Source: a virus. From it: a stretch of DNA of 39,427 nt. A program made the position numbers and the translations under genes. The stretch spans positions 1 to 39,427 of IMG/VR virus record IMGVR_UViG_3300043444_000071; one strand, written 5' to 3'. The notes under the pieces are model-generated. The model was not told where the DNA came from. It was given only the letters and a program-made list of their open reading frames with translations, and did no database searches. Shown piece after piece: positions 24,820-38,149 of this stretch (the stretch's first letter is position 1; each line of letters opens with the position of its first letter).

Positions 24820-25149
24820 TTAAGCTTTCCTAATCAACTCAAAGGTATTGATACAAGCCATTGTCGATCCCAACTCAGACTTAATGCGAACCTGATCGCC
24901 CTCTTCAAGTACAACAAAAGCACCACCATCAAACTTAAGGAACTGTGTAGGGCTAAGAATGTAACCACTAACTACAGCGTATTCCTCGTTAGTTGACTTA
25001 TCGTACCACCAAGCACTAACTGACTTATTGTTGCCGGTGTTGTTTACAATGTAACACAGATTCCACTTAGCAAAGTAGCCAGTAGGCACTGTATACACTG
25101 TTGTCTTAGTATCTGCTACTAAGTTTGTTCCTACTGATACTTCACGCAT
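24820..25149 (-). CDS. Small beta-rich structural protein
   Basis: 109 residues with regular strands: TNLVADTKTTVYTVPTGYFA, KWNLCYIVNNTGNNKSVSAW, LKFDGGAFVVLEEGDQVRIK. The 'vytVP.gy.a.w......N' opening is typical of beta-sandwich phage proteins that decorate capsids or tails. Function not recognised; the place after the capsid gene suggests a virion component. Confidence 0.75.
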   Translation of the reverse strand: MREVSVGTNLVADTKTTVYTVPTGYFAKWNLCYIVNNTGNNKSVSAWWYDKSTNEEYAVVSGYILSPTQFLKFDGGAFVVLEEGDQVRIKSELGSTMACINTFELIRKA

Positions 25150-25154
25150 AGTGT

Positions 25155-25343
25155 TTATTCTTCCTGTGGTGTTTGTAAATTACTCTTAGGCGGACGGCCT
25201 ACAGGCTTCTTAGGCTCTTCTTGTATTACTTCGGTGTAGCCCGGATGGGTACGCATAGTCTTAATGTCATGCTCTGAAGTAAACTCAAAGATGTTACCTG
25301 ATTGATTACATTTGAAGCGGGTTCCGCTGGTGAATTTAACCAT
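25155..25343 (-). CDS. Small protein with AT-hook-like tail
   Basis: 62 residues. The first half (VKFTSGTRFKCNQSGNIFEF) is beta-rich with one Cys; the tail EEPKKPVGRPPKSNLQ contains a GRP core flanked by basic residues, the AT-hook pattern that binds the minor groove of AT-rich DNA. It lies just after the capsid gene and its hairpin. Function unknown. Confidence 0.75.
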   Translation of the reverse strand: MVKFTSGTRFKCNQSGNIFEFTSEHDIKTMRTHPGYTEVIQEEPKKPVGRPPKSNLQTPQEE

Positions 25344-25397
25344 CTATTATTCCTCAATTTGAGATTGCATAGCAATCGTTGGAGTAGATACACAGAA

Positions 25398-25423
25398 GCC
25401 CCCTCAGAGCTAACTGAAGGGGC
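25398..25423 (-). terminator. Hairpin after the capsid gene
   Basis: Arms GCCCCTTCAG and CTGAGGGGGC (leftward reading, 25423 to 25398) pair with one mismatch around a six-base loop and are followed by TTCTGTGTATCT. It lies 17 bases past the capsid stop. The U-tract is imperfect, so it probably reduces rather than abolishes transcription into the tail genes, as with the partial terminator after the T7 capsid gene. Confidence 0.7.
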
Positions 25424-25439
25424 AACTATTTACCTACTA

Positions 25440-26345
25440 TTAGGCGGGAACGGCCAGAGCCACAGCGGAATTATCACGCAGCTCGTCAGCGCCGAACAGA
25501 ACGTCAGCGGTGAACAGAGTGCCCAAATATTCCTGCTTGTATTGCGTCTGAGTACGCACACCCATTTGCTCAACCAGAACAGCGAAGTCCTTATGAGCCA
25601 GCAAGCAGATGCGGTCGCCATCGGTAGCGGTGTCAGCGTTGGTGGTCACGAAGACGGGGATGCCGTACACGTTGCCAACTTCACCGTTGCGGATAGTGTT
25701 GCCACCGCCGACTTCACCCACGAAGGCTTGCTCGGTGAAACGAGCGATACCCATCAGAGTGTTACGGGTCGACGGAGGAACGATCAGGAAACGACCGTCC
25801 ATAGGCACATCGTTGTCATCCAGACGCTGGATAGAACGACGAATAGCTGCATCGGTCAGAGCGCCAGCAGTGCCAGTGTAAGCCGTAGTACCGTCAGCAC
25901 CAGAGTAAGCACCAGTGTAGCCAGCAGTGCCGTCACCACCGTTAGCCTTACGGCCCAGTTGCACCAGAACGGAGTCAACTTTCTTAGCCAGAGCGTAGCC
26001 AGCATCGTCCGTGTAGAACTGACGCAGGGAAGCCAGAGCTTGAGCTTCAACGATGTCTTCGATCAGGCGGCTGTATTCCCAGTGCTGGTTGATGCTCACG
26101 GTCTTCTCAGACTCAGTAGCAGCAATCAGGGTCACTTGGGTGGAAGCAGCCTTAGCGGAAGCATCGCCACGGGTAGGAGCCGGAATGTGAACGGTGTCAC
26201 CTTTCTTGCCCTTGAAGTTCATCTTCTTAACGAGGTTAGCAGCAACCAAGTTCTTCTTGTAAGCTGCAATAATTTCGTCACTCCATACCTCAGGGATAAA
26301 GGTTGCAGAGGTGGTGGTCGTAACGTGGTTAGTACCTAAAGCCAT
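25440..26345 (-). CDS. Major capsid protein
   Basis: 301 residues. TFIPEVWSDEIIAAYKKNLV and KGDTVHIPAPTRGDASAKAA, then the E-loop-like VSINQHWEYSRLIEDI and the long spine helix RQFYTDDAGYALAKKVDSVL, match the HK97-fold capsid proteins of podo- and siphoviruses ('IPE.Ws..i...y.......l'). An inserted Gly/Thr/Tyr-rich loop (GGDGTAGYTGAYSGADGTTA, residues about 135-154) is probably surface-exposed. No separate protease is seen; the scaffold gene lies just upstream. Codon choice is noticeably more GC-rich here than in neighbours, as expected for a highly expressed gene. Confidence 0.93.
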   Translation of the reverse strand: MALGTNHVTTTTSATFIPEVWSDEIIAAYKKNLVAANLVKKMNFKGKKGDTVHIPAPTRGDASAKAASTQVTLIAATESEKTVSINQHWEYSRLIEDIVEAQALASLRQFYTDDAGYALAKKVDSVLVQLGRKANGGDGTAGYTGAYSGADGTTAYTGTAGALTDAAIRRSIQRLDDNDVPMDGRFLIVPPSTRNTLMGIARFTEQAFVGEVGGGNTIRNGEVGNVYGIPVFVTTNADTATDGDRICLLAHKDFAVLVEQMGVRTQTQYKQEYLGTLFTADVLFGADELRDNSAVALAVPA

Positions 26346-26382
26346 TTTTAAATCTCCTAAAGATTAAATTAAATTGAATAAA

Positions 26383-27189
26383 TCATTTAACGCGACCCTC
26401 AGCGTATGCTGCCATGATTTCATCTTGTAAGGCATCATAACGAGAAGGATCAGTCATACGTAGCCGGATAAGGTCGGCACGGCGATAGACTTTCTTGGAG
26501 GACTCACCAGTTCCGCTAACATCGACAGCAGCAGCTTTTAAGTTCTGCTTAAGAGCTTGTTTACCAGCTTCTTGTGTTTGTTGTGTCTTTGCACCGCGAA
26601 TCTGTTTAAAAGTAGACAGTAATTCGTCAGCAGCTGTAAAATCGTATTGAGCATCAGCCATTGCGTACATATTCAAACGTAACGGAGAAGCTTTAACCCA
26701 CTCGATAAACTCACCATCTTTAATGACATCTACAAAGTCAGGGTGCTTAGCAGCAAGTTTCTGCTGAGTTTGCATGGCCTTCATTTGCATAGCAGCCTGT
26801 TTAGCTGCAATCACATCAGGGTGGTTTTGAACTGCTTTCTCAACTGCCTTCTTTGGGTCTTCAAAGAAGTCAATCTCTTGTGTTTGTGTTTCTTGTGGTT
26901 GTGCTTGAGATTGTTGCTTTTGGGAGAGTGTCTGTTTCAGGAGTTCATCAGCTAACTTACGAACTTCACCAACTTCTTGTGCTTGACGACCGATAAGCTT
27001 TTCAGCCTCTTGGTGCATCTTCACAATATCTTCTAGGTTCTTACCCTTGTATTTCTCGGGAACCGTAAAAGCTTCTGGTTCATTCTTAGTCTCTTGTGGT
27101 TCGACTTGCTGTTGCTGTTTTTCAACTGCGTCGATTTCACTGAATTGTTCACCTTTCGACAGGTCTTCACTATCATCAATTAAAGCCAT
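26383..27189 (-). CDS. Capsid scaffolding protein
   Basis: 268 residues, acidic and Gln-rich, helical. The opening EAFTVPEKYKGKNLEDIVKM then HQEAEKLIGRQAQEVGEVRK is the typical N-terminal motif of podoviral scaffolds ('vPekykgKs.ediv.mh.e.ek..gr..nE.g..r'). The C-terminus (SKKVYRRADLIRLRMTDPSR, YDALQDEIMAAYAEGRVK) is the capsid-binding helix region. It guides assembly of the prohead and is then removed. Confidence 0.93.
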   Translation of the reverse strand: MALIDDSEDLSKGEQFSEIDAVEKQQQQVEPQETKNEPEAFTVPEKYKGKNLEDIVKMHQEAEKLIGRQAQEVGEVRKLADELLKQTLSQKQQSQAQPQETQTQEIDFFEDPKKAVEKAVQNHPDVIAAKQAAMQMKAMQTQQKLAAKHPDFVDVIKDGEFIEWVKASPLRLNMYAMADAQYDFTAADELLSTFKQIRGAKTQQTQEAGKQALKQNLKAAAVDVSGTGESSKKVYRRADLIRLRMTDPSRYDALQDEIMAAYAEGRVK

Positions 27190-27262
27190 ACCTAACCTTT
27201 CATCCTGTCCACTATGATTTATTGGATTACAGGAAACTTAAAAATAGATTCAGAGTTGCTCC

Positions 27263-27496
27263 TTAGAGGGAGTTCCGTTTCTGTTCTTGTTTGAGCTTCT
27301 CAGCTCGGACTCTTGACCACTTGTCGTAAGCATCTGGGAAGGCTCCAGAGAAACCTTCTAGCTTTACTTGTGGAGAAGAAACTAAACGATCTGCGTCCTT
27401 ACCACAAACCGGACATTTAATAGTCCGAACGCTATCGTCAACAAACGCTTCGGATTCGTGAGCGTCTGAGCAGAGGAAATCAAACATTCGTCTCAT
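27263..27496 (-). CDS. FmdB-type zinc ribbon protein
   Basis: 77 residues. MFDFLCSDAHESEAFVDDSV then IKCPVCGKDADRLVSSPQVK has the FmdB zinc-ribbon layout, but the first knuckle keeps only one cysteine (C9, with a histidine at 13) while the second CPVC is intact, so metal binding may be CH/CC. C-terminal GAFPDAYDKWSRVRAEKLKQ is conserved in phage versions. Placement between portal and scaffold is usual. Function unknown. Confidence 0.85.
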   Translation of the reverse strand: MRRMFDFLCSDAHESEAFVDDSVRTIKCPVCGKDADRLVSSPQVKLEGFSGAFPDAYDKWSRVRAEKLKQEQKRNSL

Positions 27497-27719
27497 TTAA
27501 CTCTTCCCATACTTTCTCACAAGTTTCCTTGCGATTTAAAACCAAGTCTAAGATGTCAAGCTGACCTTTACGGAAAAATAAATCTTGTGTGTCCGTTGTC
27601 AATGTTACATCGTTAATACTTGCCTTTAACTTGGCGAAGTCTTCTAAGAGGTCTTTCCACCCCTCAGAAGCCATCATATCAAAGTGATTCTCGTAGTACT
27701 TAGTTAAGGATTGATCCAT
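27480..27719 (-). CDS. Hypothetical helical protein between portal and scaffold
   Basis: 79 residues, all helical: SLTKYYENHFDMMASEGWKD and FFRKGQLDILDLVLNRKETC. The pattern 'f..eg.q.l..d........' is a small conserved phage protein found beside FmdB-like genes. It overlaps that gene by 17 bases and has AAGGA upstream. It is the first gene behind the internal leftward promoter at 27753-27780. Confidence 0.82.
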   Translation of the reverse strand: MDQSLTKYYENHFDMMASEGWKDLLEDFAKLKASINDVTLTTDTQDLFFRKGQLDILDLVLNRKETCEKVWEELNETNV

Positions 27720-27748
27720 TTTTGGGAGTCCTTTTTGTTACACATGGG

Positions 27749-27780
27749 TACTATTATACACTACTTTTTGTATAATACAA
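27749..27780 (-). promoter_or_regulatory. Internal leftward sigma70-type promoter with inverted-repeat operator
   Basis: Leftward reading gives -35 TTGTAT (27780-27775), a 16-base spacer and a perfect -10 TATAAT (27758-27753). The inverted repeat TATTATAC (27752-27759) / GTATAATA (27770-27777), perfect over eight bases with a ten-base gap, covers both elements. The start would be near 27746, ahead of the genes for the helical protein, FmdB-like protein, scaffold and capsid. 26 of 32 bases match the promoter at 32190-32221. Confidence 0.75.
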
Positions 27781-29781
27781 CTATTTATTTGCTACTTTTT
27801 GACGAGAATTAATCATTTGGGCTACAGCAATGCGCTCATTTGACTTAATATCTTGTTCTTTAAGCATCAACTCAGCCAGTTTCACACGCTTTTCAAAGTC
27901 TTTAGTCTCATCATCCTCATTGAGGTTGTTACTGAGAGCAGAAATGACCTTAGCTTGAGCAACTTGGGGAGCAGTCTGAGCTTCAACAACAGCTTTTTGA
28001 GCTTCTGCGGTAGACTTTTGAGCCTTAGCCTGTAAGTCTTGAATCTGAGCCTGCAACAAGGCAAGTTGCATCTGTTGTTGCTGCATTTGAGCCTGTTGTT
28101 GCTCTGGATTAGGCTGAGACATCTGTTCAAGCGTCTGAATCAACTCACCACGATTAGTCAGAGAGCTGTTCTGCAGGATACCCTTCAGAATCAGAGGCAA
28201 GACAGGAGTATTTGGGCCTAAAGTCTGCAACAAACCAATCAGTTGCTGCTGTTCAAACTCACGAGCAAGGATACCCAGAGTAGCGGTAGGAATGAAATTC
28301 ATATCTACAGATGGATAACGCTCAGGATCGAACTGCATGAAGCGATAAGCTGCTTTGTAGATGAACGGAACCATGAAATCTTCTTGGAAGTTCGTCAAAG
28401 TACGCTTATACTTCTTAATAATGCCAGCCATAGCCATCGACATACCACCAGCACCAGCATCACGAGGCACATTAGAAGGCATTCCAGCGGAGTCTACAGT
28501 GCCGGTAGCTTGCAAGAGCATACGCTCAAAGTTCTGAGCCGCTGCAGCTGCATTACCGTCTGTTTGTCCGAAGTGGAATGGAGTCAGAATCTCACTAGGA
28601 TTACCGTTAGTAAGAATAGCCTTACCCGGACGTACCTCAAACTTAGCGCCACGAGGCAAGCGAGTAGCATCCATGCCAATCATTGGGGCAGTCGTCAGAG
28701 CAAGAGAGTCCATGTGGGCACGAAGCTGACCATCAATAGCTTTTTGCATATTGAAAGCCTTCTCAATCGTACCGCGACCCCAGAAGCGCCCCGGAACCGT
28801 ATCATCTTGATAAGCCAAGACAGGACGATCCTTCATCATGTAGGGGTTCTCTTCAGCTTTGAGCAAGACGCCATCGTTAGCGATCACAATGATTGCTTCA
28901 ACGAGGTTACAGTAGTCATCAGCTTCAGAGTCTTCAGGGAAAATCTCTTCGTATTCTTCTTCATCACCGCCAGTCAGGTACTCTTTAGGAACCAAACCGT
29001 AGTAAGTGAGCAGCTTAACCTTATCGTCTTGGAACTGACGAAGCTCTTGAGTAGGCTCTAAGTCCTGATCTTCGTAGTTAGAACCGATGTCTGCCTTCTT
29101 GTAAATACCTTTTTCCATTCCTTCCACGATTTTGTGGATAGAAACGTACTTTTCGATAGCTACGCCCAGAGCGTCATCAATGGAGTCAGCGTTAGGGTCA
29201 ATCAGGAAGTTCTTAGGGTTAACAGGCTTGAGCTTAACAGCAACTCGTTCTTTCTCTTGCACACCAATAGCAGCTGTATTAGCAATGCCGGGGATAGCCT
29301 GAGTAGCTGGAATATACTCTTTCTCTGTCTTGATGATAACTTCACCAATACCTGTACCGTAGATTTCAGCCATCAGTTCAATCTGATCTACGGACTTCTT
29401 GATCTTATCCTTCTTGAAGTCTTCCATCAGTTGTAGCTTGAGAGCTTCAACGTCTAAGGAGTTACCATTAACGTCCTTGATGTCGTCTTCGATGTCAAAG
29501 AACTCACCTTGACCGAAGATAGCTTCCATGATCTCAGCGTGGCGAGTCTCCACAGCCTGCTGAGTAGCTGGTGCAATGATTCGGCTACGCTCGGACTCAC
29601 GAGTCTTATCCTCAGCAGCCCATTGACCACGGAAGATACGCTCATATTCGAGCCAAGTGTCCATATAGTTAGCATCACGGTGGTCACGCCAACGAGTCGT
29701 ATGATCCACCACCCAAGCTGTTAATTCCTTTTCAGCTTCGGTAGGCTCTTCATACTGAGAGTTACTAATTTCTTCAGCCAT
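27781..29781 (-). CDS. Portal protein (head-tail connector)
   Basis: 666 residues. TRWRDHRDANYMDTWLEYER then IFRGQWAAEDKTRESERSRI, APATQQAVETRHAEIMEAIF and the middle VLAYQDDTVPGRFWGRGTIE identify the podoviral portal family ('y.ddt.p..fWG.G..e.....q..id'). A long Gln-rich helical C-terminus (QQQAQMQQQQMQLALLQAQI, residues about 565-600) corresponds to the barrel region. Twelve copies would form the DNA gate that docks terminase and later the adaptor. Confidence 0.95.
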   Translation of the reverse strand: MAEEISNSQYEEPTEAEKELTAWVVDHTTRWRDHRDANYMDTWLEYERIFRGQWAAEDKTRESERSRIIAPATQQAVETRHAEIMEAIFGQGEFFDIEDDIKDVNGNSLDVEALKLQLMEDFKKDKIKKSVDQIELMAEIYGTGIGEVIIKTEKEYIPATQAIPGIANTAAIGVQEKERVAVKLKPVNPKNFLIDPNADSIDDALGVAIEKYVSIHKIVEGMEKGIYKKADIGSNYEDQDLEPTQELRQFQDDKVKLLTYYGLVPKEYLTGGDEEEYEEIFPEDSEADDYCNLVEAIIVIANDGVLLKAEENPYMMKDRPVLAYQDDTVPGRFWGRGTIEKAFNMQKAIDGQLRAHMDSLALTTAPMIGMDATRLPRGAKFEVRPGKAILTNGNPSEILTPFHFGQTDGNAAAAAQNFERMLLQATGTVDSAGMPSNVPRDAGAGGMSMAMAGIIKKYKRTLTNFQEDFMVPFIYKAAYRFMQFDPERYPSVDMNFIPTATLGILAREFEQQQLIGLLQTLGPNTPVLPLILKGILQNSSLTNRGELIQTLEQMSQPNPEQQQAQMQQQQMQLALLQAQIQDLQAKAQKSTAEAQKAVVEAQTAPQVAQAKVISALSNNLNEDDETKDFEKRVKLAELMLKEQDIKSNERIAVAQMINSRQKVANK

Positions 29782-29791
29782 TTATATTCCT

Positions 29792-31051
29792 TTAATAGCC
29801 CGATATTGGGTCTAAGACTTCATACTCATCCTGTTCGTAGTCCTGTTGGTAGGAAACGATAGCAAGCTGATCGACGTAAGAGAGGGCATCAACGAGGTCA
29901 TCGTGTACCCCTGCAGTAGGGAACATGATTAACTGATCCTTGAACTCATCCCAATCTTCTTGTTTGTTAAAGCTAATACGTCCATGCTCTAAACGACCTT
30001 GAAGACTCCAGACAACACGATCTACTTTCTTCTTATTACCGTGTGTCAGGTCTTGGATGTGAGCATAGACATTGTTCTTACGCATCAAATCGTTTAGATA
30101 AGGTAGAACAGCATTCTTTAGAGCACCTCGTTCAATACCTACTGCTGTAGGCTCATAGTCTCTAATAGCTTGTAGAATCTTTACTGCTGTCTCTCTGATG
30201 TCCCATCGACCATGAATGATCTTAGCAATCCACCAATCACCGTTATCAGCTATCTTAGCAACAGCAATAGCAGATTCGTCTAGACGCTTCTTAGATGCTC
30301 CAGCATTCTTAGCTACCTCTTCAAAGCCAGCTAAGTCGATAGCTACAACATAGCTACCAAACTGAGGCTCATCGCCTAGCTTAAACCACTCAGGCTTAAA
30401 GACATCAGCACCAGAAGTATCAAAGCTGGATAAATATTCCTGCTTAAATGCAAAGGAGCTAAGGGTTCGCTTAGCAGCTTCAATTTCTTTAGGGTCAATA
30501 GTCTCGTTATCAGCAGTAGTAAAGTGCCAAGACTTCCACTCTTCGTCTGTACCTTCTTGTCCTAAATGAAATGTATCATAGAACCAGTTGCGGCCTGACG
30601 GTGTACTGATGAACAAAGCTCTACCCTTCTTGTCGGACAAAGCAGCACGTAGAATCTTTTGCCATACATCTTCTTTAATGAAGGCGCACTCGTCTAGCAC
30701 TAAATATGTTAAAGATACACCACGAAGAGAGTCAGGGTTATCAGCGCCTCTGACGAGAATCTTCTTACCATTAACAAGAGTAATCTCAAGGTTATTGATG
30801 TGACTAGACTTGATGACAGGTCTACCCAGCTCGTGTATCAAGTCCCAGATAATCGTTCTAGCTTGGCCTAACGTAGGAGCTACATACATCACTGAAGAAC
30901 CTTCAGGACAGTTCAGAGCCTCAATGAGCAATGTAACAGCAGACAATCGGGACTTACCACAGCGACGACCAGCTGCTACGACCTTAAAGCGATGAGAGTC
31001 TTTAAAGACTTCTTGCTGCCATTTCAGGAGTTCAAAGTTAAGACTGGTCAT
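29792..31051 (-). CDS. Terminase large subunit
   Basis: 419 residues from the ATG at 31051 (AGGAG upstream); an in-frame start at 31072 would add seven residues. Walker A is VVAAGRRCGKSRLSA (near residue 30), Walker B is YLVLDECAF (near 119), and STPSGRNWFYD follows as motif III. The C-terminal nuclease has VVAIDLAG (near 228), GIERGALKN and the final AGVHDDLVDALSY with its metal-binding Asp residues. It pumps and cuts DNA during packaging. The start lies inside the small subunit gene. Confidence 0.96.
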   Translation of the reverse strand: MTSLNFELLKWQQEVFKDSHRFKVVAAGRRCGKSRLSAVTLLIEALNCPEGSSVMYVAPTLGQARTIIWDLIHELGRPVIKSSHINNLEITLVNGKKILVRGADNPDSLRGVSLTYLVLDECAFIKEDVWQKILRAALSDKKGRALFISTPSGRNWFYDTFHLGQEGTDEEWKSWHFTTADNETIDPKEIEAAKRTLSSFAFKQEYLSSFDTSGADVFKPEWFKLGDEPQFGSYVVAIDLAGFEEVAKNAGASKKRLDESAIAVAKIADNGDWWIAKIIHGRWDIRETAVKILQAIRDYEPTAVGIERGALKNAVLPYLNDLMRKNNVYAHIQDLTHGNKKKVDRVVWSLQGRLEHGRISFNKQEDWDEFKDQLIMFPTAGVHDDLVDALSYVDQLAIVSYQQDYEQDEYEVLDPISGY

Positions 31052-31424
31052 CAGAGTACTCCTTAACTTCAACGTCTGTTACATCTTCTAGTGTCTGCAC
31101 GGTAGGTGAATTAAGACCAGATATATTGATACTGATCTGAGGAGCACCTCCACCTTGCTTAGCAGCTTCAAAGGCAGACACTGGGACGATACGATCCACA
31201 ATTAGCTTCCACGCTGCTGCTTGATTCTTATGCTCATCATTCAAAGCTGCATCATAAATAGCTTCAAGCACTTTAGCAGATTTAGGAGAGTTAAGCATTC
31301 TGAGCTTATACTCGTTGATGATGGCTGCTTCACCTTTAGGACGGCCTACAGACCTAGATTCTTTAATCTCTTTGATTGCTGTCTTTGAGGGTCTACCCTT
31401 TTTGTTACCAGTTGCTGCTGTCAT
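31038..31424 (-). CDS. Terminase small subunit (probable)
   Basis: 128 residues just upstream of the large subunit, overlapping it by 14 bases. The N-terminus has two GRP motifs in basic surroundings (KKGRPSKTAIKEIKES and VGRPKGEAA), like AT-hooks. A helical core follows (IINEYKLRMLNSPKSAKVLE, AIYDAALNDEHKNQAAAWKL) with a flexible tail. The 'r.l.sp.s..Vle.i...A.n.dh..q..A.Kl..dR..P' text is typical of small subunits in this phage group. It would choose the packaging site. Confidence 0.85.
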   Translation of the reverse strand: MTAATGNKKGRPSKTAIKEIKESRSVGRPKGEAAIINEYKLRMLNSPKSAKVLEAIYDAALNDEHKNQAAAWKLIVDRIVPVSAFEAAKQGGGAPQISINISGLNSPTVQTLEDVTDVEVKEYSDDQS

Positions 31425-31876
31425 TTCAACTCCTCGCTTCGCTGCTCGTGATTCTTAAACAAGGATGGCAAGGAGTTATATCTATCACTAGACAACTTAG
31501 AGCTACACTCTTTACACCAGCTGCTATATCGTTGATAGCCATCTTGTGTCTTGTTTACTCTCTTATAAAAAGATTCTAGAGGCTTATCCTCTTTGCAATG
31601 AGTGCACTCCTTCTCACCCTTCTCTAATACAGACATAGCCTTTTGTTTACTTTTAGTAAGAATAGCTTTCTTACGACCAGCTTTGATCTGTGCTTCAGGG
31701 TTATGAAGTTGAGTAGCAATCTTTTGATAATAGTCTTCTTTTGCTTTCCACTTAGACAAAGAACACTTCCTACATTCGTGGTGGTAACCAGTAGGCGATT
31801 CTTTAGATGGATAGAAGTTATCCTTAGACAACTCTAATTCAGTGGAACAAGAAGAACAAGTTTGAGTGAGTTTCAT
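31421..31876 (-). CDS. Protein with two tandem zinc-binding modules
   Basis: 151 residues. Two copies of one cysteine module flank a basic linker. The first is CSSC at residues 7-10 with CRKC at about 35-38; the second is CTHC at about 92-95 with CKEC at about 121-124. In each, 'L....FY......GY...C..C' lies between the pairs (LSKDNFYPSKESPTGYHHEC and LESFYKRVNKTQDGYQRYSS). The linker is Lys-rich (AGRKKAILTKSKQKAM). The module looks like the zinc scaffold of HNH/endonuclease VII-type proteins, but I see no clear HNH catalytic triad. First gene of the leftward unit, joined to the small terminase by ATGA. Confidence 0.8.
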   Translation of the reverse strand: MKLTQTCSSCSTELELSKDNFYPSKESPTGYHHECRKCSLSKWKAKEDYYQKIATQLHNPEAQIKAGRKKAILTKSKQKAMSVLEKGEKECTHCKEDKPLESFYKRVNKTQDGYQRYSSWCKECSSKLSSDRYNSLPSLFKNHEQRSEELK

Positions 31877-31951
31877 TGTGTGTCTTTATCCTTTTGGGAG
31901 ACTATATAGGCTATATGTTTTTAGTTTATCTCATTAAAGGTTTGTATTTGG

Positions 31952-31967
31952 CTATATCGTTATATAG
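31952..31967. promoter_or_regulatory. Hairpin in the leftward leader
   Basis: CTATAT-CGTT-ATATAG, a perfect six-base stem with a four-base loop, lies about 80 bases upstream of the first leftward gene, within the presumed 5' leader of that transcript. A related direct repeat CTATAT-AGG-CTATAT occurs at about 31902-31916. Role unknown. Confidence 0.4.
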
Positions 31968-31974
31968 ACAAAGG

Positions 31975-32024
31975 TGTCTTTAATGTTACAGAATCTAAGA
32001 TGAAGTACTTATGTCTTTAATGTT
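31975..32024. repeat. Direct repeat pair TGTCTTTAATGTT
   Basis: Two exact 13-base copies at 31975-31987 and 32012-32024, 37 bases apart start to start. The inner 11 bases (TCTTTAATGTT) recur in inverted orientation at 32583-32593 and 32616-32626 in the iteron array. The leftward leader therefore contains the same word as the presumed origin. Confidence 0.8.
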
Positions 32025-32170
32025 GCCTTTCAGGTGCTTAGATGCTATCGCTGATGCTGCCTTACAGGTGTACAGATAGAAGAATAAATACTTATCTAGA
32101 CTCTTCGTTGTACTACACAGTGGGGTCAGGCTGTATAGATTCCTCATCTTGAGTTCTGTAGTGTTGACTC

Positions 32171-32189
32171 CTTAGTTTCAACAACTAAG
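32171..32189 (-). promoter_or_regulatory. Stem-loop at the presumed 5' end of the leftward transcript
   Basis: CTTAGTT (32171-32177) and AACTAAG (32183-32189) form a perfect seven-base stem with a five-base loop. The leftward -10 ends at 32194, so transcription should start near 32187, placing the hairpin at the extreme 5' end of the RNA. Such structures protect phage mRNAs from RNase E, and it could equally be an operator. Confidence 0.55.
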
Positions 32190-32221
32190 TAATATTATAC
32201 ACCAACTTTCGTGTAATACAA
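32190..32221 (-). promoter_or_regulatory. Main leftward (late) sigma70-type promoter with operator-like repeat
   Basis: Leftward reading: -35 TTGTAT (32221-32216), 16-base spacer, -10 TATAAT (32199-32194). TATTATAC (32193-32200) and GTGTAATA (32211-32218) form an inverted repeat with one mismatch and a ten-base gap, the same geometry as at 27749-27780. It would drive terminase, portal and the genes beyond, with a leader of about 310 bases. Confidence 0.78.
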
Positions 32222-32507
32222 GTCTTTTCTTCATCTTTGTTACAATTATTTACATATTTTACACTTTAGATACCATCTAAGCAGCTTTCAGTGTCCTCCT
32301 TTAAGCCACCCTAGCCATCAGAGTCTTTGTGTCTAAGCAATATTATGTTAAGTCTATACAGATCAATGACTTAGCTGGTGTCTATACTGCCTACTTTTTA
32401 GGCACTAATCTGTCCCTAATTAGCTTAATTTTTCCTTTTTGTGTGCTTCAGAGGCTCCACCAAAGTTCTCTCACTCTCCAGCACCCCTCCCCCCATCAAC
32501 ATTGTAT

Positions 32508-32529
32508 ACAATACTGTTTACAATACTGT
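32508..32529. repeat. Direct repeat pair ACAATACTGT
   Basis: Copies at 32508-32517 and 32520-32529, 12 bases apart, overlapping the palindrome TTGTATACAA at 32502-32511. They lie directly before the first ACACTATAGGTAG box. They look like a protein-binding cluster. Confidence 0.6.
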
Positions 32530-32574
32530 ACACTATAGGTAGCGTTAGTGAGCACTTACAAACACTATAGGTAG
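32530..32574 (+). promoter_or_regulatory. Two ACACTATAGGTAG boxes
   Basis: Identical 13-base copies at 32530-32542 and 32562-32574, 32 bases (about three helix turns) apart. CACTATAGG is the initiation core of T7- and SP6-class promoters, but the upstream specificity parts of those promoters are not evident and no phage RNA polymerase gene is present. Either an origin element, a binding site for a phage regulator, or promoters for a polymerase not encoded here. Confidence 0.5.
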
Positions 32575-32585
32575 TGTCTACTAAC

Positions 32586-32634
32586 ATTAAAGAAATATTA
32601 AAGAAATATTAAAGAAACATTAAAGAAACATTAA
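32586..32634. repeat. Tandem 11-bp iterons (four copies plus a part copy)
   Basis: Units at 32586-32596, 32597-32607, 32608-32618 and 32619-32629 read ATTAAAGAAAT, ATTAAAGAAAT, ATTAAAGAAAC, ATTAAAGAAAC, followed by ATTAA. The 11-base period puts each copy on nearly the same helix face and the array is very AT-rich, as in iteron-type origins. Confidence 0.85.
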
Positions 32635-32848
32635 TGACCAGTCAGTCAGTACTCAATGGGCAAGTGTGAGGGGCATTGTAGGTGCCTATAGAGATAACCT
32701 ATCATGTTCAATAAGTCAATAGCCTAAGCCTATACAGTCAACTATACCAGTGGCTCGCAGAGCTACGCTGTGATTCTATACAGTAGTTTAATTAAGTGTT
32801 GTATTTATACCACTGATTGTAAAGTTATGTAAAGACAATAAAAACTTG

Positions 32849-32876
32849 TTGACACGGTACAAAAGTACGATATAAT
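32849..32876 (+). promoter_or_regulatory. Early rightward sigma70 promoter
   Basis: Consensus -35 TTGACA (32849-32854), 16-base spacer, consensus -10 TATAAT (32871-32876), with an A-rich upstream stretch (AAAGACAATAAAAAC) like an UP element. The spacer contains the palindrome GTAC-AAAA-GTAC (32857-32868), a possible operator. The transcript would begin near 32883, about 42 bases before the first early gene. This is the strongest promoter in the window by eye. Confidence 0.9.
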
Positions 32877-32924
32877 ACACCCATGCCAAGCAATAAAGCA
32901 GGGCAGTAACCAAAGGAACTAACC

Positions 32925-33110
32925 ATGAATAAGCAAGAAACCAAACAAGCAGAGCAAGTAATCAAGTTCGGTCAGGCTCTTGGCACTGATTATATCGCAC
33001 GTGGTCTTTCTGCCCTGCATCGCTCTGCCCGCACCACTAAGAGCAAGCAAGCTATCCTCGCTCTGGGTATTGCATACAAAGCAGTAAGCAGCAAAGAATG
33101 GATTATTTAA
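32925..33110 (+). CDS. Early protein 1, basic, 61 residues
   Basis: ATG 32925 behind AAAGGAACTAACC. The protein is basic and helical: MNKQETKQAEQVIKFGQALG, then YIARGLSALHRSARTTKSKQ. As the first gene after the strong early promoter it should be made in quantity on infection, so a role in host takeover or transcription control is likely. No family with a known function is recognised. Confidence 0.8.
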   Translation: MNKQETKQAEQVIKFGQALGTDYIARGLSALHRSARTTKSKQAILALGIAYKAVSSKEWII

Positions 33111-33123
33111 GGGTAAACACCTA

Positions 33124-33150
33124 TTGTAGGGGCCTTCAAAGCCTCTACAA
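33124..33150 (+). promoter_or_regulatory. Intergenic hairpin between early genes 1 and 2
   Basis: TTGTAGGGGC (33124-33133) pairs with GCCTCTACAA (33141-33150) over ten bases with one G-U pair and loop CTTCAAA. No run of T follows, so it is unlikely to be a strong terminator. An RNase III processing site or mRNA 3'-end stabiliser is more likely. Confidence 0.6.
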
Positions 33151-33178
33151 TTGACACCATCAACAAAGGATAAGCACC

Positions 33179-33376
33179 ATGAAAACCATAAACCTAAACA
33201 AGCACTACGACCAAGAAATCAAAGCAGTAAAGAGCATGAAAGAGCGGGGCATTATCGAGGATTTTAAGGGTAACCCTGATGCTGGCATTGTATGGATCAA
33301 AGCAGAGGGAGAATGGCTAGAGGTCTGGAACATGAGCGAAGCCCTTGATAGCCATACAGCATACAATAACGCTTAA
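33179..33376 (+). CDS. Early hypothetical protein, 65 residues
   Basis: ATG 33179 with AAAGGATAAGCACC upstream. The sequence MKTINLNKHYDQEIKAVKSM then IIEDFKGNPDAGIVWIKAEG is a helix followed by a beta pair; acidic near the end. Similar 'NPD.G.VWI....W' proteins occur in early regions of other phages; function unknown. Confidence 0.75.
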   Translation: MKTINLNKHYDQEIKAVKSMKERGIIEDFKGNPDAGIVWIKAEGEWLEVWNMSEALDSHTAYNNA

Positions 33377-33392
33377 CCTAGGAGAACCTAAA

Positions 33393-33470
33393 ATGTCCGA
33401 CTTCACAGTAATGATCCTGACCCTGATTGTCTTCGCCTTCATTGGCGTCCTGTTTGCACTGTTTATCTAA
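33393..33470 (+). CDS. 25-residue single-helix membrane peptide
   Basis: MSDFTVMILTLIVFAFIGVL then FALFI. The ATG has an excellent ribosome binding site (AGGAGAACCTAAA). The whole peptide is one transmembrane helix with a short polar N-terminus. Its sequence offers no charge at the C-terminus. Tiny early membrane peptides of phages can block host enzymes or secondary infection; that is inference here. Confidence 0.65.
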   Translation: MSDFTVMILTLIVFAFIGVLFALFI

Positions 33471-33482
33471 GAGGAAACCACC

Positions 33483-33614
33483 ATGAAATACATCAATGTC
33501 ACCATCTATGGGAAACAATACAAGGCCAAGGTTTTGAAGGTACATCCCTTCGGTACTGTTGACGTAGAGTTGTCCTCTGGCCGCTGTTTCCGTGTGTCTG
33601 GCCTTAACATCTAA
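33483..33614 (+). CDS. Early small protein, 43 residues
   Basis: ATG 33483 with GAGGAAACCACC just before it. MKYINVTIYGKQYKAKVLKV then HPFGTVDVELSSGRCFRVSG is a basic beta-strand protein, perhaps an SH3-like barrel. Function unknown. It stops about 28 bases before a possible -10 box. Confidence 0.7.
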   Translation: MKYINVTIYGKQYKAKVLKVHPFGTVDVELSSGRCFRVSGLNI

Positions 33615-33619
33615 GAGGC

Positions 33620-33647
33620 TTCACCGTGATGGGTTATCCTGTATAAT
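33620..33647 (+). promoter_or_regulatory. Possible second early promoter
   Basis: -10 TATAAT (33642-33647) with TTCACC (33620-33625) at the -35 position and the same 16-base spacing as the other promoters. The -35 match is weak. It would restart transcription ahead of the 33719 gene. Confidence 0.45.
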
Positions 33648-33653
33648 CCATTG

Positions 33654-33695
33654 CAGTGCACCTTCAGCACTGAATCCCGCTAGAGATGTTCTAGC
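33654..33695 (+). promoter_or_regulatory. Two adjacent hairpins upstream of the 33719 gene
   Basis: CAGTGC-ACCTTCA-GCACTG (33654-33672) is followed after six bases by GCTAGA-GATGT-TCTAGC (33679-33695). Both stems are perfect over six bases. They would form at the 5' end of RNA from the 33642 promoter, or act as processing sites in a longer early RNA. No T-run follows either stem. Confidence 0.55.
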
Positions 33696-33718
33696 AACTA
33701 ACCTTCAAAGGTAACACC

Positions 33719-34054
33719 ATGGCAATCGTTCAAACATTGACTAAATATTCATTCATCGAAGCGTTCAGGCAATCGAGCCGCAAAGATCAATTCAGCTATG
33801 AGGCGTTAGAGGCAATCTTTGACTATCTCGAAGAGTACAGCGATAGCACAGGCGAGCCGGTAGAGTTTGACATCATTGCTATTTGCTGTGATTGGACTGA
33901 GCAACATTGGGAAAGTATTGCGGAGTACTTTAGTATCGACCTAGAAGGATGTGACGATGACGAAGAGCGCATTGAGGCAGTGCGCGACTATCTGGAATAT
34001 GAGACACAATGCGTAGAGCTGTCCAAGGGCTTGTTTGTCTATGTCAACTTTTAA
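33719..34054 (+). CDS. Conserved acidic early phage protein
   Basis: 111 residues, strongly acidic. The text SFIEAFRQSSRKDQFSYEAL then EAIFDYLEEYSDSTGEPVEF and DIIAICCDWTE is a well-known conserved hypothetical of many phages and prophages ('F...F...gR.dnFSyegL..LFdyLee.e...g...elDvIaiCCe..E'). Overall charge is DNA-mimic-like, so inhibition of a host DNA-binding enzyme is possible, but not shown. Start follows AAAGGTAACACC. Confidence 0.85.
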   Translation: MAIVQTLTKYSFIEAFRQSSRKDQFSYEALEAIFDYLEEYSDSTGEPVEFDIIAICCDWTEQHWESIAEYFSIDLEGCDDDEERIEAVRDYLEYETQCVELSKGLFVYVNF

Positions 34055-34069
34055 GAGGATTAAACCATC

Positions 34070-34330
34070 ATGAAAACATCTCCACAGCAAAAAGCAATTA
34101 GTGCCTTCATGTCTGCCCGTAAACGTCACCTAACAGGAATCCATAGATCATTCCCTAAATATTGGCCGGGGATGTCAACGGCTGAATATGTAGACAAATA
34201 TCGACGCCTTAACGTAGGAAATTTTGACAAACAGACAGCAGAGGTGCTACCTATTGACCTTAGCGCCTATCTACGCCCTGCAACAGTGCCTAGCAGTGGC
34301 TATGATGAAGTCATTGAGGAGTTAGTCTAA
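34070..34330 (+). CDS. Early hypothetical protein, 86 residues
   Basis: ATG 34070 with AAGAGGATTAAACCATC upstream. The N-terminal half is basic (AISAFMSARKRHLTGIHRSF), then PKYWPGMSTAEYVDKYRRLN; the C-terminal half is neutral to acidic. No motif recognised. The next gene starts on the base after its stop. Confidence 0.7.
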   Translation: MKTSPQQKAISAFMSARKRHLTGIHRSFPKYWPGMSTAEYVDKYRRLNVGNFDKQTAEVLPIDLSAYLRPATVPSSGYDEVIEELV

Positions 34331-34540
34331 ATGTATCAAGTCCAATTTATATCATCAGGCATCAGCGCCTTTTCGTCTAACGATAGGGGCCAAGCAAAGC
34401 ATTGGCTAGAATGCAACAACTACGGGCCAGACGTACCCATCATTGACCCTGACACCGGAGAGGTGCAAGGGTACAGCAGAGGTGAGTGCCTTGGATTATT
34501 TAAACTATGTAAGGTGAACACCTATGCTATGGCCTTTTAA
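34331..34540 (+). CDS. Early hypothetical protein, 69 residues
   Basis: ATG 34331, directly after the previous stop, with GAGGAG in the end of the previous gene as ribosome binding site. MYQVQFISSGISAFSSNDRG then QAKHWLECNNYGPDVPIIDP is a strand-helix-strand layout. Function unknown. It overlaps the next gene by 17 bases. Confidence 0.7.
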   Translation: MYQVQFISSGISAFSSNDRGQAKHWLECNNYGPDVPIIDPDTGEVQGYSRGECLGLFKLCKVNTYAMAF

Positions 34541-34670
34541 GTACATCAACGGCGAACAAACCGAAGAAAGTAAGGCATTAGAGGCTAAACCACAGGAAAA
34601 GCCTTACAATGTCGAAGGGCGATACGCCCGGGCACTACTTGAAACGAATGAAGAGGAGGCTCTATTGTGA
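34524..34670 (+). CDS. Small hypothetical protein, 48 residues
   Basis: ATG 34524 has AAGGTGAACACCT upstream inside the previous gene. MLWPFKYINGEQTEESKALE then AKPQEKPYNVEGRYARALLE is a short charged protein with an aromatic N-terminus. Its stop overlaps the next start as GTGA. It fills an otherwise empty gap of about 130 bases. Confidence 0.6.
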   Translation: MLWPFKYINGEQTEESKALEAKPQEKPYNVEGRYARALLETNEEEALL

Positions 34671-34888
34671 AGATTAAACAATTTGCTTATAAAATAGGCA
34701 GTTTTGAATGGTATGGTCTAGCCGAGATCGAAGAAGACGAAGAGCTAGGGGCCATTGTGACTGTAACGGACTTGTACCTTGAAGGGTATAGAGACGACAA
34801 TCCACCAGACATGGTAAGCATTGTCAATTACCAGTTAGTGCTAGACATCGCTGACATGGTACGAATTGAATTCAACAACGGAAGGTAA
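34667..34888 (+). CDS. Early acidic hypothetical protein, 73 residues
   Basis: Starts at GTG 34667, supported by AGAGGAGGC upstream and the GTGA overlap. MKIKQFAYKIGSFEWYGLAE then IEEDEELGAIVTVTDLYLEG is a beta-rich acidic protein; a short helix (YQLVLDIADMVRIEF) ends it. No family recognised. Confidence 0.7.
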   Translation: MKIKQFAYKIGSFEWYGLAEIEEDEELGAIVTVTDLYLEGYRDDNPPDMVSIVNYQLVLDIADMVRIEFNNGR

Positions 34889-34897
34889 CTCAACATC

Positions 34898-35116
34898 ATG
34901 AATAAGCACACACCGGGGCCTTGGAAGGCCGTATACGTTGGTTGCGGAGATTGGGATTTGAATGGCCCAGTCACGCAAGAAGACTGGACGCTTGCCGCCG
35001 CAGCCCCTGAGTTGCTGGAGGCGTTGCAATACCTTTTGGTCGCGCATGGAGAACAGCTAGACCACGCATTTCAAATGGCACAAGACGCCATCGCAAAAGC
35101 AACAAAAGGAAATTAA
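34898..35116 (+). CDS. HTPGPW-family small phage protein
   Basis: 72 residues. MNKHTPGPWKAVYVGCGDWD carries the HTPGPW signature and LAAAAPELLEALQYLLVAHG the second conserved patch of a family found in very many phages. Here the linking region (QEDWTLAAAAPELL) is shorter than usual. Function unknown. ATG has GGAAGGTAACTCAACATC upstream. Confidence 0.9.
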   Translation: MNKHTPGPWKAVYVGCGDWDLNGPVTQEDWTLAAAAPELLEALQYLLVAHGEQLDHAFQMAQDAIAKATKGN

Positions 35117-35123
35117 TTACATC

Positions 35124-35261
35124 ATGAAACAATCACACATCACCACACCTCGAACACTTGGTGAATGCTACTTTGACCCTCGTGGAAGTGCTATCGAAAA
35201 GCCACTACGTGAGCACATTGGAGTGCTTAGTCTGCTTTGGCGTATGTTGACTGGACGTTAA
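35124..35261 (+). CDS. Small conserved protein with FDPRG motif
   Basis: 45 residues: MKQSHITTPRTLGECYFDPR then GSAIEKPLREHIGVLSLLWR. 'PRTLgEC.FDP.G..ie.p..eh' is the start of a small phage family that normally continues into a membrane helix. Here only a short apolar segment (IGVLSLLWRML) follows, so this copy may be shortened. ATG has AAAGGAAATTAATTAC upstream. Confidence 0.75.
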   Translation: MKQSHITTPRTLGECYFDPRGSAIEKPLREHIGVLSLLWRMLTGR

Positions 35262-35275
35262 GATGTATCAGGAAG

Positions 35276-35309
35276 GCACTTTAAAGGCCCTAGAAGGCCA
35301 CTAAAGTGC
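35276..35309 (+). promoter_or_regulatory. Nested hairpin after the FDPRG gene
   Basis: GCACTTTA (35276-35283) pairs with TAAAGTGC (35302-35309); inside, GGCC (35286-35289) pairs with GGCC (35296-35299) around CTAGAA, with two-base bulges on each side. It is followed by TGAGTTGATACC, without a T-run. An RNase III-type processing site or weak terminator; the gap to the next gene is about 115 bases. Confidence 0.6.
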
Positions 35310-35377
35310 TGAGTTGATACCTGCACTAGGGTGACACCTAATAATTGATTTAAACTTGATGAACAAGGAAGACTAAA

Positions 35378-35629
35378 ATGACACGATGCGTATGCTGTAA
35401 CAAAAATTTGAGTGACTTTGAAGCCACTAGGCGTCATGCTTCAACAGGTGAATTCCTCGATATGTGCAACAATTGTATTACAGACACAGGGATTGCCACT
35501 AAAGATCGGCGTGACCTGCTCACCGAGGAGGGAACAAATAGTTACACTGATGACGAAGAAGGGCTTGACAAGATCGAAAAAGACACTATAATAAACTATG
35601 TAGACAATAGAGGCATTGAAGAACTCTAA
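35378..35629 (+). CDS. Small zinc-ribbon protein
   Basis: 83 residues. MTRCVCCNKNLSDFEATRRH then STGEFLDMCNNC gives two CxxC pairs (C4-x2-C7 and C30-x2-C33), the layout of a short zinc ribbon common in phage early regions ('C.cCn..L.d.E.......g...d.C..C'). An acidic tail (TDDEEGLDKIEKDTIINYVD) follows. Start has AAGGAAGACTAAA upstream. Confidence 0.85.
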   Translation: MTRCVCCNKNLSDFEATRRHASTGEFLDMCNNCITDTGIATKDRRDLLTEEGTNSYTDDEEGLDKIEKDTIINYVDNRGIEEL

Positions 35630-35640
35630 TGTTAAATACA

Positions 35641-35677
35641 TACTTTAATGATATATAAATAAATATACATTAAAGTA
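35641..35677. promoter_or_regulatory. AT-rich ten-base inverted repeat
   Basis: TACTTTAATG (35641-35650) and CATTAAAGTA (35668-35677) are perfect complements around a 17-base loop made only of A and T. The CATTAAAG half-site is the same as in the iterons and direct repeats of the control region. It lies in the gap before the 35715 gene; a protein-binding site or hairpin. Confidence 0.6.
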
Positions 35678-35714
35678 CATTGATGTCTTTAAAGTAACCC
35701 CAAGAGGATGTTTT

Positions 35715-35912
35715 ATGTCTAAGTTTGATGACTACATGATGGAGCTTGATGAACGAGAAAAAGAAGCTATGGACTTTGAGTTCTTTTATTGGTCTGTTGT
35801 CAACGATGTGGCTATGCTCATCAAAGACAACGGTTACAATGAGGTCTTAAAGGACATTCTGGACACTGCGCAACGAATAGTTGACAAGCAACAAAGTGGC
35901 GATGTACAATGA
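35715..35912 (+). CDS. Small acidic helical protein, 65 residues
   Basis: ATG 35715 with AAGAGGATGTTTT upstream. MSKFDDYMMELDEREKEAMD then FEFFYWSVVNDVAMLIKDNG is helical and acidic. The stop overlaps the next start (ATGA at 35909-35912). No family recognised. Confidence 0.75.
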   Translation: MSKFDDYMMELDEREKEAMDFEFFYWSVVNDVAMLIKDNGYNEVLKDILDTAQRIVDKQQSGDVQ

Positions 35913-35965
35913 TTGTCTCTTTATTTTTGTTTGTCTTAACACTTGTGAAGGTTGTTTTGAAATGA
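35909..35965 (+). CDS. 18-residue hydrophobic peptide, coupled at both ends
   Basis: Reads MIVSLFLFVLTLVKVVLK. The ATG overlaps the upstream stop and the TGA overlaps the next ATG (AATGA), so it exactly fills the space between two genes in a third frame. The peptide is a near-perfect single membrane helix with Lys at positions 14 and 18. It may be made in its own right, or serve only to pass ribosomes to the next gene. Confidence 0.45.
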   Translation: MIVSLFLFVLTLVKVVLK

Positions 35966-36222
35966 ACTCTTTGTCTTTGTCTATGCCCCTCAACGAAGGG
36001 GAAGTAGTTGTAGAGTTTGATTGGTATGGAGCCTCTGATGATTCAGAGCCTGAATGGGATACAATGGAAGTATGGGCTTTGTTGAACACCCAAGTACCGT
36101 CAGAGAAGCGATGGGTTAAGATCAATGACTTGATTCACGAACAGGACTGGCTTAAGATTGAGAAGGAAATCTACCAACGTGAGGATGAACTAAGGCAACA
36201 AGCTTATGAAAACCAGTTCTAA
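35962..36222 (+). CDS. Acidic hypothetical protein before primase-helicase
   Basis: 86 residues from ATG 35962 (GAAGG ten bases upstream). A longer in-frame reading from 35881 would give an unlikely Cys-rich start inside the previous gene. MNSLSLSMPLNEGEVVVEFD then TMEVWALLNTQVPSEKRWVK, ending in a charged helix (LKIEKEIYQREDELRQQAYE). It overlaps the primase-helicase start by 17 bases. Function unknown. Confidence 0.75.
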   Translation: MNSLSLSMPLNEGEVVVEFDWYGASDDSEPEWDTMEVWALLNTQVPSEKRWVKINDLIHEQDWLKIEKEIYQREDELRQQAYENQF

Positions 36223-37813
36223 CTTCGTCAAGCACATACCCTGTGAGCACTGCGGTAGCTCAGACGGTAATAGCTTGTACGATGATGGGCATGAGTACTG
36301 TCATGTTTGCCAAGCTTTTAAGCCTGCTGACAGCGAGAGTGACAAACTGTCGGTAATTAGGAATAACTACAAACAAAAGGATATTACTGTGTTAACAAAC
36401 AAGGGGACAGTTAAAGCTATCCCAGAACGTAACATCACCAGCGCAACCTGCGAGAAATATGGAGTAACTCAAGACAATGGAAAACACTACTACCCTTACA
36501 CTGACGAAGGAGGAACTAGAGTTGCTTATAAGGTACGTTCAGTTGCTGACAAGAGTTTTGCCATCGAAGGAAGCTTTAAAGATGCCTCTCTATTCGGTCA
36601 ATCTCTCTTTCACACAGGTGGGAAGTACCTAACCATCGTAGAAGGTGAACTGGATGCTCTAGCAGCTTATCAGATGACTGGCTCACAGTGGCCTGTAGTG
36701 TCTATCCGCAATGGTGCTCAAGCAGCTCTAAAGGACTGCAAGGCACAGTACGAATGGATCAATAGCTTTGAGGCTGTAGTGATCTGTTTTGATGACGATG
36801 AGCCGGGCAAGAAAGCAGCTAAAGAAGTAGCAGAACTCTTTGGGCAGAAAGCTAAGATTGTCCAGCATAAGAGTGGCTACAAAGATGCTTGTGAGTACCT
36901 GATTGCAGGAGCTACTAAGGAGTTTGTCAATGAATGGTGGAGGGCTGAAGTATTTATCCCTGACGGCATCGTTAATGCTGCAACACTCTGGGAAGAAATC
37001 TGTAAGCCAGAACCTAAAGCAGAGGCACAATATCCGTGGGAAGGCCTTAACAAGCTGTTGTACGGGCTTCGTAGGGCAGAACTCATTACTGTCACCGCAG
37101 GCAGCGGCTTAGGTAAGAGTCAATTCCTGCGAGAGATTCTGTACCACTTGCTCAAGACTACCAGCTGGAACATTGGTGGATTGTTTTTGGAAGAGAGTAC
37201 AAGGAAGACTGCACGTAGCATTATGAGCCTTCACGCTAATAAGCTATTGCACCTGCCTGACACTCCAGTCACTGAAGAGGAACTTAAAGATGCTTTCGAC
37301 GCAACGCTTGGAACTAATCGCGTTTATCTATTTGACCACTTTGGTAGTTCTGATGTGGACAACATTGCTAATCGAATCCGATATATGGCTAAGGCGTGTG
37401 ATTGTCGGGTTATCTTTCTTGACCATATTAGTATCGTGGTTTCTGGTCAGGATGTAGGCGATGAACGTAAAGCAATTGATGCAATGATGACTAAGTTGCG
37501 TACACTGGTACAGGAACTTGAAGTAACACTGATCTGTGTATCACATTTACGGAGGCCACAAGGAAATGCAGGACATGAAGATGGACAAGCTGTTAGCCTC
37601 TCTCAGCTTCGAGGATCAGGAGCTATTGCGCAGCTTAGCGATGCGGTCATTACTCTCGAACGGAACAGTATGGCTGAAAATGAACTGGAACGACACCGAA
37701 CAAAAGTTGCAGTGGCAAAAAATAGATACAACGGATACACTGGCCCTGCATGTGAACTCCAGTACATCAAAGAAACAGGACGAATGTTAGAAGCAAAGGA
37801 AGAAACGCTATGA
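36206..37813 (+). CDS. DNA primase-helicase (T7 gp4-like)
   Basis: 535 residues with both activities of the T7 replication fork enzyme. The zinc domain is CEHCGSSDGNSLYDDGHEYC then HVC (residues about 13-35). The TOPRIM primase core has VEGELDALAAYQ (near 145) and ICFDDDEPGKKAA (near 195). The RecA-type helicase domain has Walker A TAGSGLGKSQFL (near 297), LEESTRKTAR, Walker B VIFLDHISIV (near 405), the arginine/His sensor CVSHLRRPQG and QLRGSGAIAQLSDAVITLER. It unwinds DNA and lays primers for the family A polymerase. Confidence 0.97.
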   Translation: MKTSSNFVKHIPCEHCGSSDGNSLYDDGHEYCHVCQAFKPADSESDKLSVIRNNYKQKDITVLTNKGTVKAIPERNITSATCEKYGVTQDNGKHYYPYTDEGGTRVAYKVRSVADKSFAIEGSFKDASLFGQSLFHTGGKYLTIVEGELDALAAYQMTGSQWPVVSIRNGAQAALKDCKAQYEWINSFEAVVICFDDDEPGKKAAKEVAELFGQKAKIVQHKSGYKDACEYLIAGATKEFVNEWWRAEVFIPDGIVNAATLWEEICKPEPKAEAQYPWEGLNKLLYGLRRAELITVTAGSGLGKSQFLREILYHLLKTTSWNIGGLFLEESTRKTARSIMSLHANKLLHLPDTPVTEEELKDAFDATLGTNRVYLFDHFGSSDVDNIANRIRYMAKACDCRVIFLDHISIVVSGQDVGDERKAIDAMMTKLRTLVQELEVTLICVSHLRRPQGNAGHEDGQAVSLSQLRGSGAIAQLSDAVITLERNSMAENELERHRTKVAVAKNRYNGYTGPACELQYIKETGRMLEAKEETL

Positions 37814-37983
37814 AGATGGATAAAATGTATCTTGAGCAGTTATCTTTAACTGACCTTGATGAAGGTGAGCCTGTGTACTTAGGGGATGATATATTCATTC
37901 TCCCTGATGGCAGCATTGTTGACTCTGATTCTGAAGACTATAAACACTACTGGAGTGAATACTATGGCACACGAGGCTGGTAA
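37810..37983 (+). CDS. Small acidic hypothetical protein, 57 residues
   Basis: ATG 37810 overlaps the helicase stop (ATGA), with AAGGAAGAAACGC upstream. MKMDKMYLEQLSLTDLDEGE then PVYLGDDIFILPDGSIVDSD is acidic and beta-rich, ending YKHYWSEYYGTRGW. It overlaps the next gene by 20 bases. No known function. Confidence 0.75.
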   Translation: MKMDKMYLEQLSLTDLDEGEPVYLGDDIFILPDGSIVDSDSEDYKHYWSEYYGTRGW

Positions 37984-38149
37984 AGGAAGTTCACCACGTA
38001 AGCAACAAGATCAAGAAGCTTATGCGGCTAACTATGAGGCCATCTTTGGACGCAAGAAGAAAGCTGAAGAAGTGCCTTTGGCATTGAAGGATTGGTCTTA
38101 CGAAGAACAACTTGAGAAAGAAACACAGAAACATGAAACCAACAGTTAG
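37964..38149 (+). CDS. Small charged protein, 61 residues
   Basis: From ATG 37964, preferred over the open frame from 37886. MAHEAGKGSSPRKQQDQEAY then AANYEAIFGRKKKAEEVPLA matches a recurrent phage text ('GKGS.pRk....y..nyd.IFg.k'), a short, basic, probably disordered protein found next to replication genes. Function unknown. Confidence 0.82.
   Translation: MAHEAGKGSSPRKQQDQEAYAANYEAIFGRKKKAEEVPLALKDWSYEEQLEKETQKHETNS

Follow-up and report, generated by a model that had tools for sequence, protein, structure and literature searches.

The window analysed here, which is the full 39,427 bases of IMG/VR virus record IMGVR_UViG_3300043444_000071, is probably a complete genome because its first and last 127 bases are identical, forming a direct terminal repeat (1-127 and 39301-39427, 127/127 bases the same). 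The late genes run leftward in the order endonuclease VII-like gene, small terminase (terS), large terminase (terL), portal, two small genes, scaffold-like gene, major capsid gene, and tail genes (Table 1). The terS candidate gave no PHROG match. No near match to the 26.0-34.5 kb region of the window was present in annotated phage records; judged by the major capsid protein, the nearest annotated records were freshwater cyanophages of the Pf-WMP3/A-4L type, which are 28-38% identical to the window in that protein but share no DNA similarity with it. For comparison we assembled more than 200 loci of related viral contigs from portal, terL, and scaffold searches. One near-identical sibling, L145, is 96% identical to the window (about 92-96% over the late region); compared with the window, its interval between terL and portal is longer by ~575 bp (L145 5132-5706). 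It alone carries a close homologue of the endonuclease VII/HNH-like gene at the same place (L145 3071-3496), and in the window lineage this gene is likely a mobile insertion.

Several other repeats were noted. Early and late genes diverge from a noncoding region of ~1 kb, which has four to five copies of the tandem 11-bp repeat AACATTAAAGA (32583-32637) and may be an origin or a regulatory region. The same region contains direct repeats of TACAATACTGT and ACACTATAGGTAG, two copies each (32507-32574). ACACTATAGGTAG resembles a T7-type promoter core, a candidate that was set aside since just two exact copies occur (at 32530 and 32562) and no polymerase was recognised. A tail-fibre-like gene (22310-23140) has many diverged internal repeats.

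Table 1. Features of the late region, listed in the leftward direction of transcription
Feature	Position	Strand	Remarks
P1, sigma70-type late promoter, TTGTAT-16-TATAAT	32194..32221	-	precedes leader RNA and packaging genes
Inverted repeat in P1, TATTACAC-N10-GTATAATA, one mismatch	32193..32218	-	lineage-specific, probably no operator
P1 leader, 5' end of late transcript	31877..32193	-	conserved structured RNA
Hairpin A, extreme 5' end of transcript	32159..32187	-	folds; in relatives at the same place with different sequence
Stem D, 5' strand, CAGAA-CUC-AAGAUGA	32144..32158	-	long-range stem
Hairpin B, CUAUACAG-CCUGACCCCA-CUGUGUAG	32113..32138	-	invariant loop, covarying stem
Putative hairpin C region (UACACC..AAGG)	32060..32072	-	by eye only
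Stem D, 3' strand, UCAUCUU-AGA-UUCUG	31989..32003	-	
Endonuclease VII/HNH-like gene	31421..31876	-	between leader and terS
terS, putative small terminase	31038..31424	-	by position before terL; adjoins terL in relatives
terL, large terminase	29792..31072	-	annotated
Portal protein	27781..29781	-	annotated
P2, sigma70-type late promoter, TTGTAT-16-TATAAT	27753..27780	-	between portal and scaffold/capsid genes
Inverted repeat in P2, TATTATAC-N10-GTATAATA, perfect	27752..27777	-	lineage-specific, probably no operator
g79, first gene after P2	27480..27719	-	
g77, small conserved gene	27263..27496	-	
Scaffold-like protein	26383..27189	-	by position
Major capsid protein	25440..26345	-	annotated
Intrinsic terminator	25398..25423	-	directly after capsid gene

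Two probable late promoters at fixed positions

An earlier note on this DNA had described two similar leftward elements, at 27749-27780 and 32190-32221, that share a -35 box, a -10 box, and their spacing; our recount confirmed that they agree at 26/32 bases. Exactly two matches to TTGTAT-N16-TATAAT were found in the window, both on the minus strand and forming P2 and P1, respectively, as compared with 0 expected from shuffles, and two first-order Markov shuffles of the window contained no pair of 32-mers alike at 26/32 bases or better. Apart from one pair at 329/39288, the other real pairs at this level belong to the terminal repeat or to repeats that are tandem or coding. Outside the boxes, P1 and P2 agree at 14/20 bases. 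Their high similarity is confined to the promoter, as might be seen if one had recently been duplicated into the place of the other, but the downstream sequences are unrelated and both positions are judged to be old because the family has promoters at both; such a duplication is a very improbable source of the 26/32 match.

The relatives were examined for promoters at the same places. Upstream of terS, the position of P1, a promoter-like site was found in about 85/115 relatives, a count in which a few best matches lie far from terS and hence are not P1. Between portal and g79, the position of P2, a promoter-like site was present in 62/79 distinct regions; just before g79, 39/79 relatives had a promoter matching at least 11/12 positions versus 0.7% of random windows, and P2 was absent from several close relatives. 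The family consensus was TTGACA-17-TATAAT plus TGn, with the 17-bp spacer in 72/77 and TGn in 59/77 cases. Most relatives match the E. coli-type extended -10 promoters of sigma70 (TTGACA-17-TGnTATAAT), and the window copies share the exact TATAAT but differ in their -35 (TTGTAT), in their spacing (16 bp), and in a TG placed immediately upstream of the -10. Both hexamers, spacing within 16-18 bp, and a conserved gene position are thus all found for P1 and P2, with a -35 that matches the consensus at only 3/6 bases in both copies. Because this -35 and the 16-bp spacer depart from the family consensus, the two promoters are possibly weak or in need of help. In L145, both elements are unchanged. 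Two perfect early promoters on the plus strand, TTGACA-16-TATAAT at 32849-32876 and 35565-35592, also have 16-bp spacers. The results support the earlier reading of both elements as leftward promoters before late gene blocks, P1 serving terminase and portal and P2 serving scaffold and capsid, and we conclude that they are probably ordinary host-type sigma70 promoters that occupy fixed sites in a large family of uncultured phages.

Mirror symmetry within the promoters

Inverted arms ten bases apart had also been reported for both elements, and they are present as described, with one mismatch in the 32.2 kb copy (TATTACAC); the repeat at 27.75 kb extends to 9-bp arms (TATTATACA-N8-TGTATAATA). 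When the boxes were held fixed and the same geometry was required, the chance of the symmetry in shuffles was ~0.001 for P2 and ~0.015 for P1, two values that depend on each other, given how similar the copies are. Over all geometries, the inverted repeat gave p = 0.006 for P2 and an unremarkable p = 0.69 for P1. Bidirectional use of the mirrored -10 was considered and rejected, the plus strand having no good -35 by eye.

The earlier note had gone on to propose that the symmetry is an operator through which one dimeric regulator switches both promoters. The comparison with relatives did not support this proposal: promoters are present at both positions, but symmetry outside the boxes is kept only in L145, an outcome that the earlier note had itself named as refuting. 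Among distinct relatives, no promoter other than that of the near-identical L145 contained TATTATAC-N10-GTATAATA, and the exact arms occurred in 64 stretches of viral contigs, among which only L145 is a relative. Inverted repeats were not enriched in the relatives' promoters, with p < 0.05 in 4.5% of 44 P1 sites and 6.7% of 30 P2 sites; those around the -10 in L008, the L026-type, and L023 were suggestive but showed no excess over shuffles. No HTH protein was recognised among ten small or unannotated early ORFs or in the ORF at 33719. On the basis of the relatives, the exact-arm scan, and the shuffles, the family-wide operator reading was rejected; a common switch is probably not what the symmetry represents because the relatives are without it. 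The symmetry is best read as a feature of the window lineage (the window and L145), not as a family operator.

A narrower form of co-regulation was also weighed, in which both promoters of this lineage would have shifted together to a weak -35 and would be switched by one factor, from the phage or its host, that binds a common site (TTGTATTAYAC...GTGTATAATA). The non-consensus -35 is identical in both window copies, and L245 (TTGACT) is the only one of ~27 other distinct genomes possessing P1 and P2 in which the two share a -35 other than TTGACA. Furthermore, just 2.5% of cross-genome P1 x P2 pairs reach the 14/20 non-box matches, and the P2 repeat stands out from shuffles at the p value given above. 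However, the joint change is confined to a single lineage and so lies beyond statistical test, the P1 arms are imperfect, L245 shows equal similarity between P1 and P2 with no symmetry, and the early ORFs tested included no recognisable DNA-binding protein. We consider this explanation quite unlikely. The promoter pair itself appears ordinary, and the operator claim can be set aside.

A conserved RNA structure in the P1 leader

The 317 nt that separate the P1 -10 from the first gene contain no conserved gene. This leader, which is found at P1 and not at P2, begins within ~10 nt of the -10. In relatives, stem D has the form CAG(G)AA-CUC-8 nt paired with 8 nt-AGA-UUC(C)UG, and its CUC/AGA internal loop is invariant. 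In the loci searched around hairpin B, neither CAG(G)AACTC nor AGATTC(C)TG occurred alone, and the extra G always appeared together with the extra C. Pairing was counted on fixed-length strands that were cut around the conserved loops and joined, because the 3' strand of stem D was displaced in automatic alignments. Across 10 distinct variants of stem D, 98.3% of cells were paired, 8/12 pairs were changed on both sides, 28 cells had changes on both sides, and slid controls gave 0-2; for stem D and hairpin B together (eight rows) 97.2% were paired with double changes in 10/18 pairs, all of these counts being favoured because the loci were selected by loop motifs. Variants of stem D from L316, L322, L292, L219, and L023 were added by a wider scan that demanded near-complete pairing, which the eight-row set did not; because scans with other loop pairs each yielded 24-51 chance matches, the added variants are supported by their location, in P1 leaders upstream of terS.

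Hairpin B was searched for with a pattern that left four stem bases free on each side. It matched 173 loci, some of which are the same contig fetched twice, and in 164/164 loci with terS in view it lay on the same strand, 157-682 nt upstream of terS. All four pair types occurred at the position beside the fixed AG/CT, and the outer stem had a mismatch in some variants. In a second group of relatives (L026-type), hairpin B is present and stem D is absent. Host assignment by hairpin B was attempted on 257 Gb of bacterial and archaeal genomes and abandoned; the only 2 matches, both in one Terriglobia MAG without late genes, were taken as chance. No Rfam 15 covariance model matched the leader at E <= 1 in the window (25000-39427) or in six relatives, phage records held no match, and no description of such a leader was found in the PMC literature. 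The covariation identifies the leader as a well-supported conserved RNA structure outside Rfam, which would start the late message of many uncultured phages.

Our inference is that the leader most likely works in cis and affects the translation, stability, or termination of the late message. One specific version, which we hold tentatively as plausible though short of probable, is that the leader governs how the terminase message is translated or how stable it is, for example through a phage protein that binds at the CCUGACCCCA loop or the CUC/AGA loop, possibly with a switch between stem D and a competing pairing. It is favoured by invariant loops on covarying stems and by GUCUCC..GGAYAAAGAC (31882-31903), a motif located at the first late gene's ribosome-binding site and present in 55/66 of the relatives' leaders. 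It is also favoured by a competing pairing of similar energy in the window and some relatives. The competing strand, however, is absent in L245 and L147, which argues against this version. A point against stem D itself is that the lowest-energy single-sequence fold of the window lacks it (-45.0 kcal/mol versus -43.0 kcal/mol with stem D).

A proposed capsid cassette and late transcription

In 75/88 relatives, the capsid gene is directly followed by a terminator, a hairpin rich in GC that runs into a T-rich tail, as compared with 0.5% of random windows; beyond it, no promoter reaching 11/12 was found in the relatives. The scaffold/capsid block lies between P2 and this terminator. In T7, the capsid gene forms the cassette phi10-gene 10-Tphi. 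In the window, too, the capsid block is preceded by an internal promoter and the capsid gene is followed by a terminator, but the window differs in using a sigma70-type host promoter, with no phage RNA polymerase recognised. None of the large ORFs annotated matched an RNA polymerase family; a search with PF00940 (RNA polymerase) also gave no match, a weak result since control genomes gave none either.

These features suggest a model, which we consider probable, of a P1 packaging operon with a structured leader and a capsid cassette formed by P2 and the terminator, both using host sigma70. Host RNA polymerase at P1 would produce a packaging transcript of leader, terS, terL, and portal, and P2 would supply an additional scaffold/capsid transcript ending at the post-capsid terminator. 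The terminator would limit flow into the tail genes, and the leader would regulate the P1 message in cis. Because the extra P2 transcript would run to the post-capsid terminator, we propose that capsid proteins are made in excess. The model builds on positions, promoter and terminator conservation, and RNA covariation, all read directly from the sequences. Transcription itself, its late timing, the dosage logic, and the function of the leader are deduced.

Could the leader instead be a put-like RNA antiterminator that allows P1 transcripts to read through the terminator behind the capsid gene and reach the tail genes? A structured RNA so close to the -10 of P1, together with tail genes that lie behind a strong terminator and have no promoter after it, would fit such a role. 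The put RNA of HK022 occurs at early promoters and has two stem-loops in ~70 nt, and its binding partner is the beta-prime zinc-binding domain (PMC9378689). Like the window leader, it is structured and comes immediately after a phage promoter (PMC9378689), but the window leader is longer, combines hairpin A with a long-range stem enclosing further hairpins, and follows a late promoter; two stem-loops within ~70 nt directly after the promoter were not found, an architecture unlike that of put RNA (PMC9378689). Moreover, the terminator is equally common without the leader (12/14) and with it (31/33), so the leader shows no tie to antitermination, and the terminator may simply leak. Antitermination of this kind is unlikely.

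Action in cis on the late message remains the preferred reading. At its broadest, and somewhat doubtfully, the leader could be an undescribed class of phage RNA that controls late genes in a widespread uncultured family without a phage polymerase, for instance a processive antiterminator or a two-state RNA in which stem D alternates with the competing pairing. As a concrete target, the leader could show how phages without a recognised polymerase time and balance their late genes; it could also serve as a marker in the search for them.
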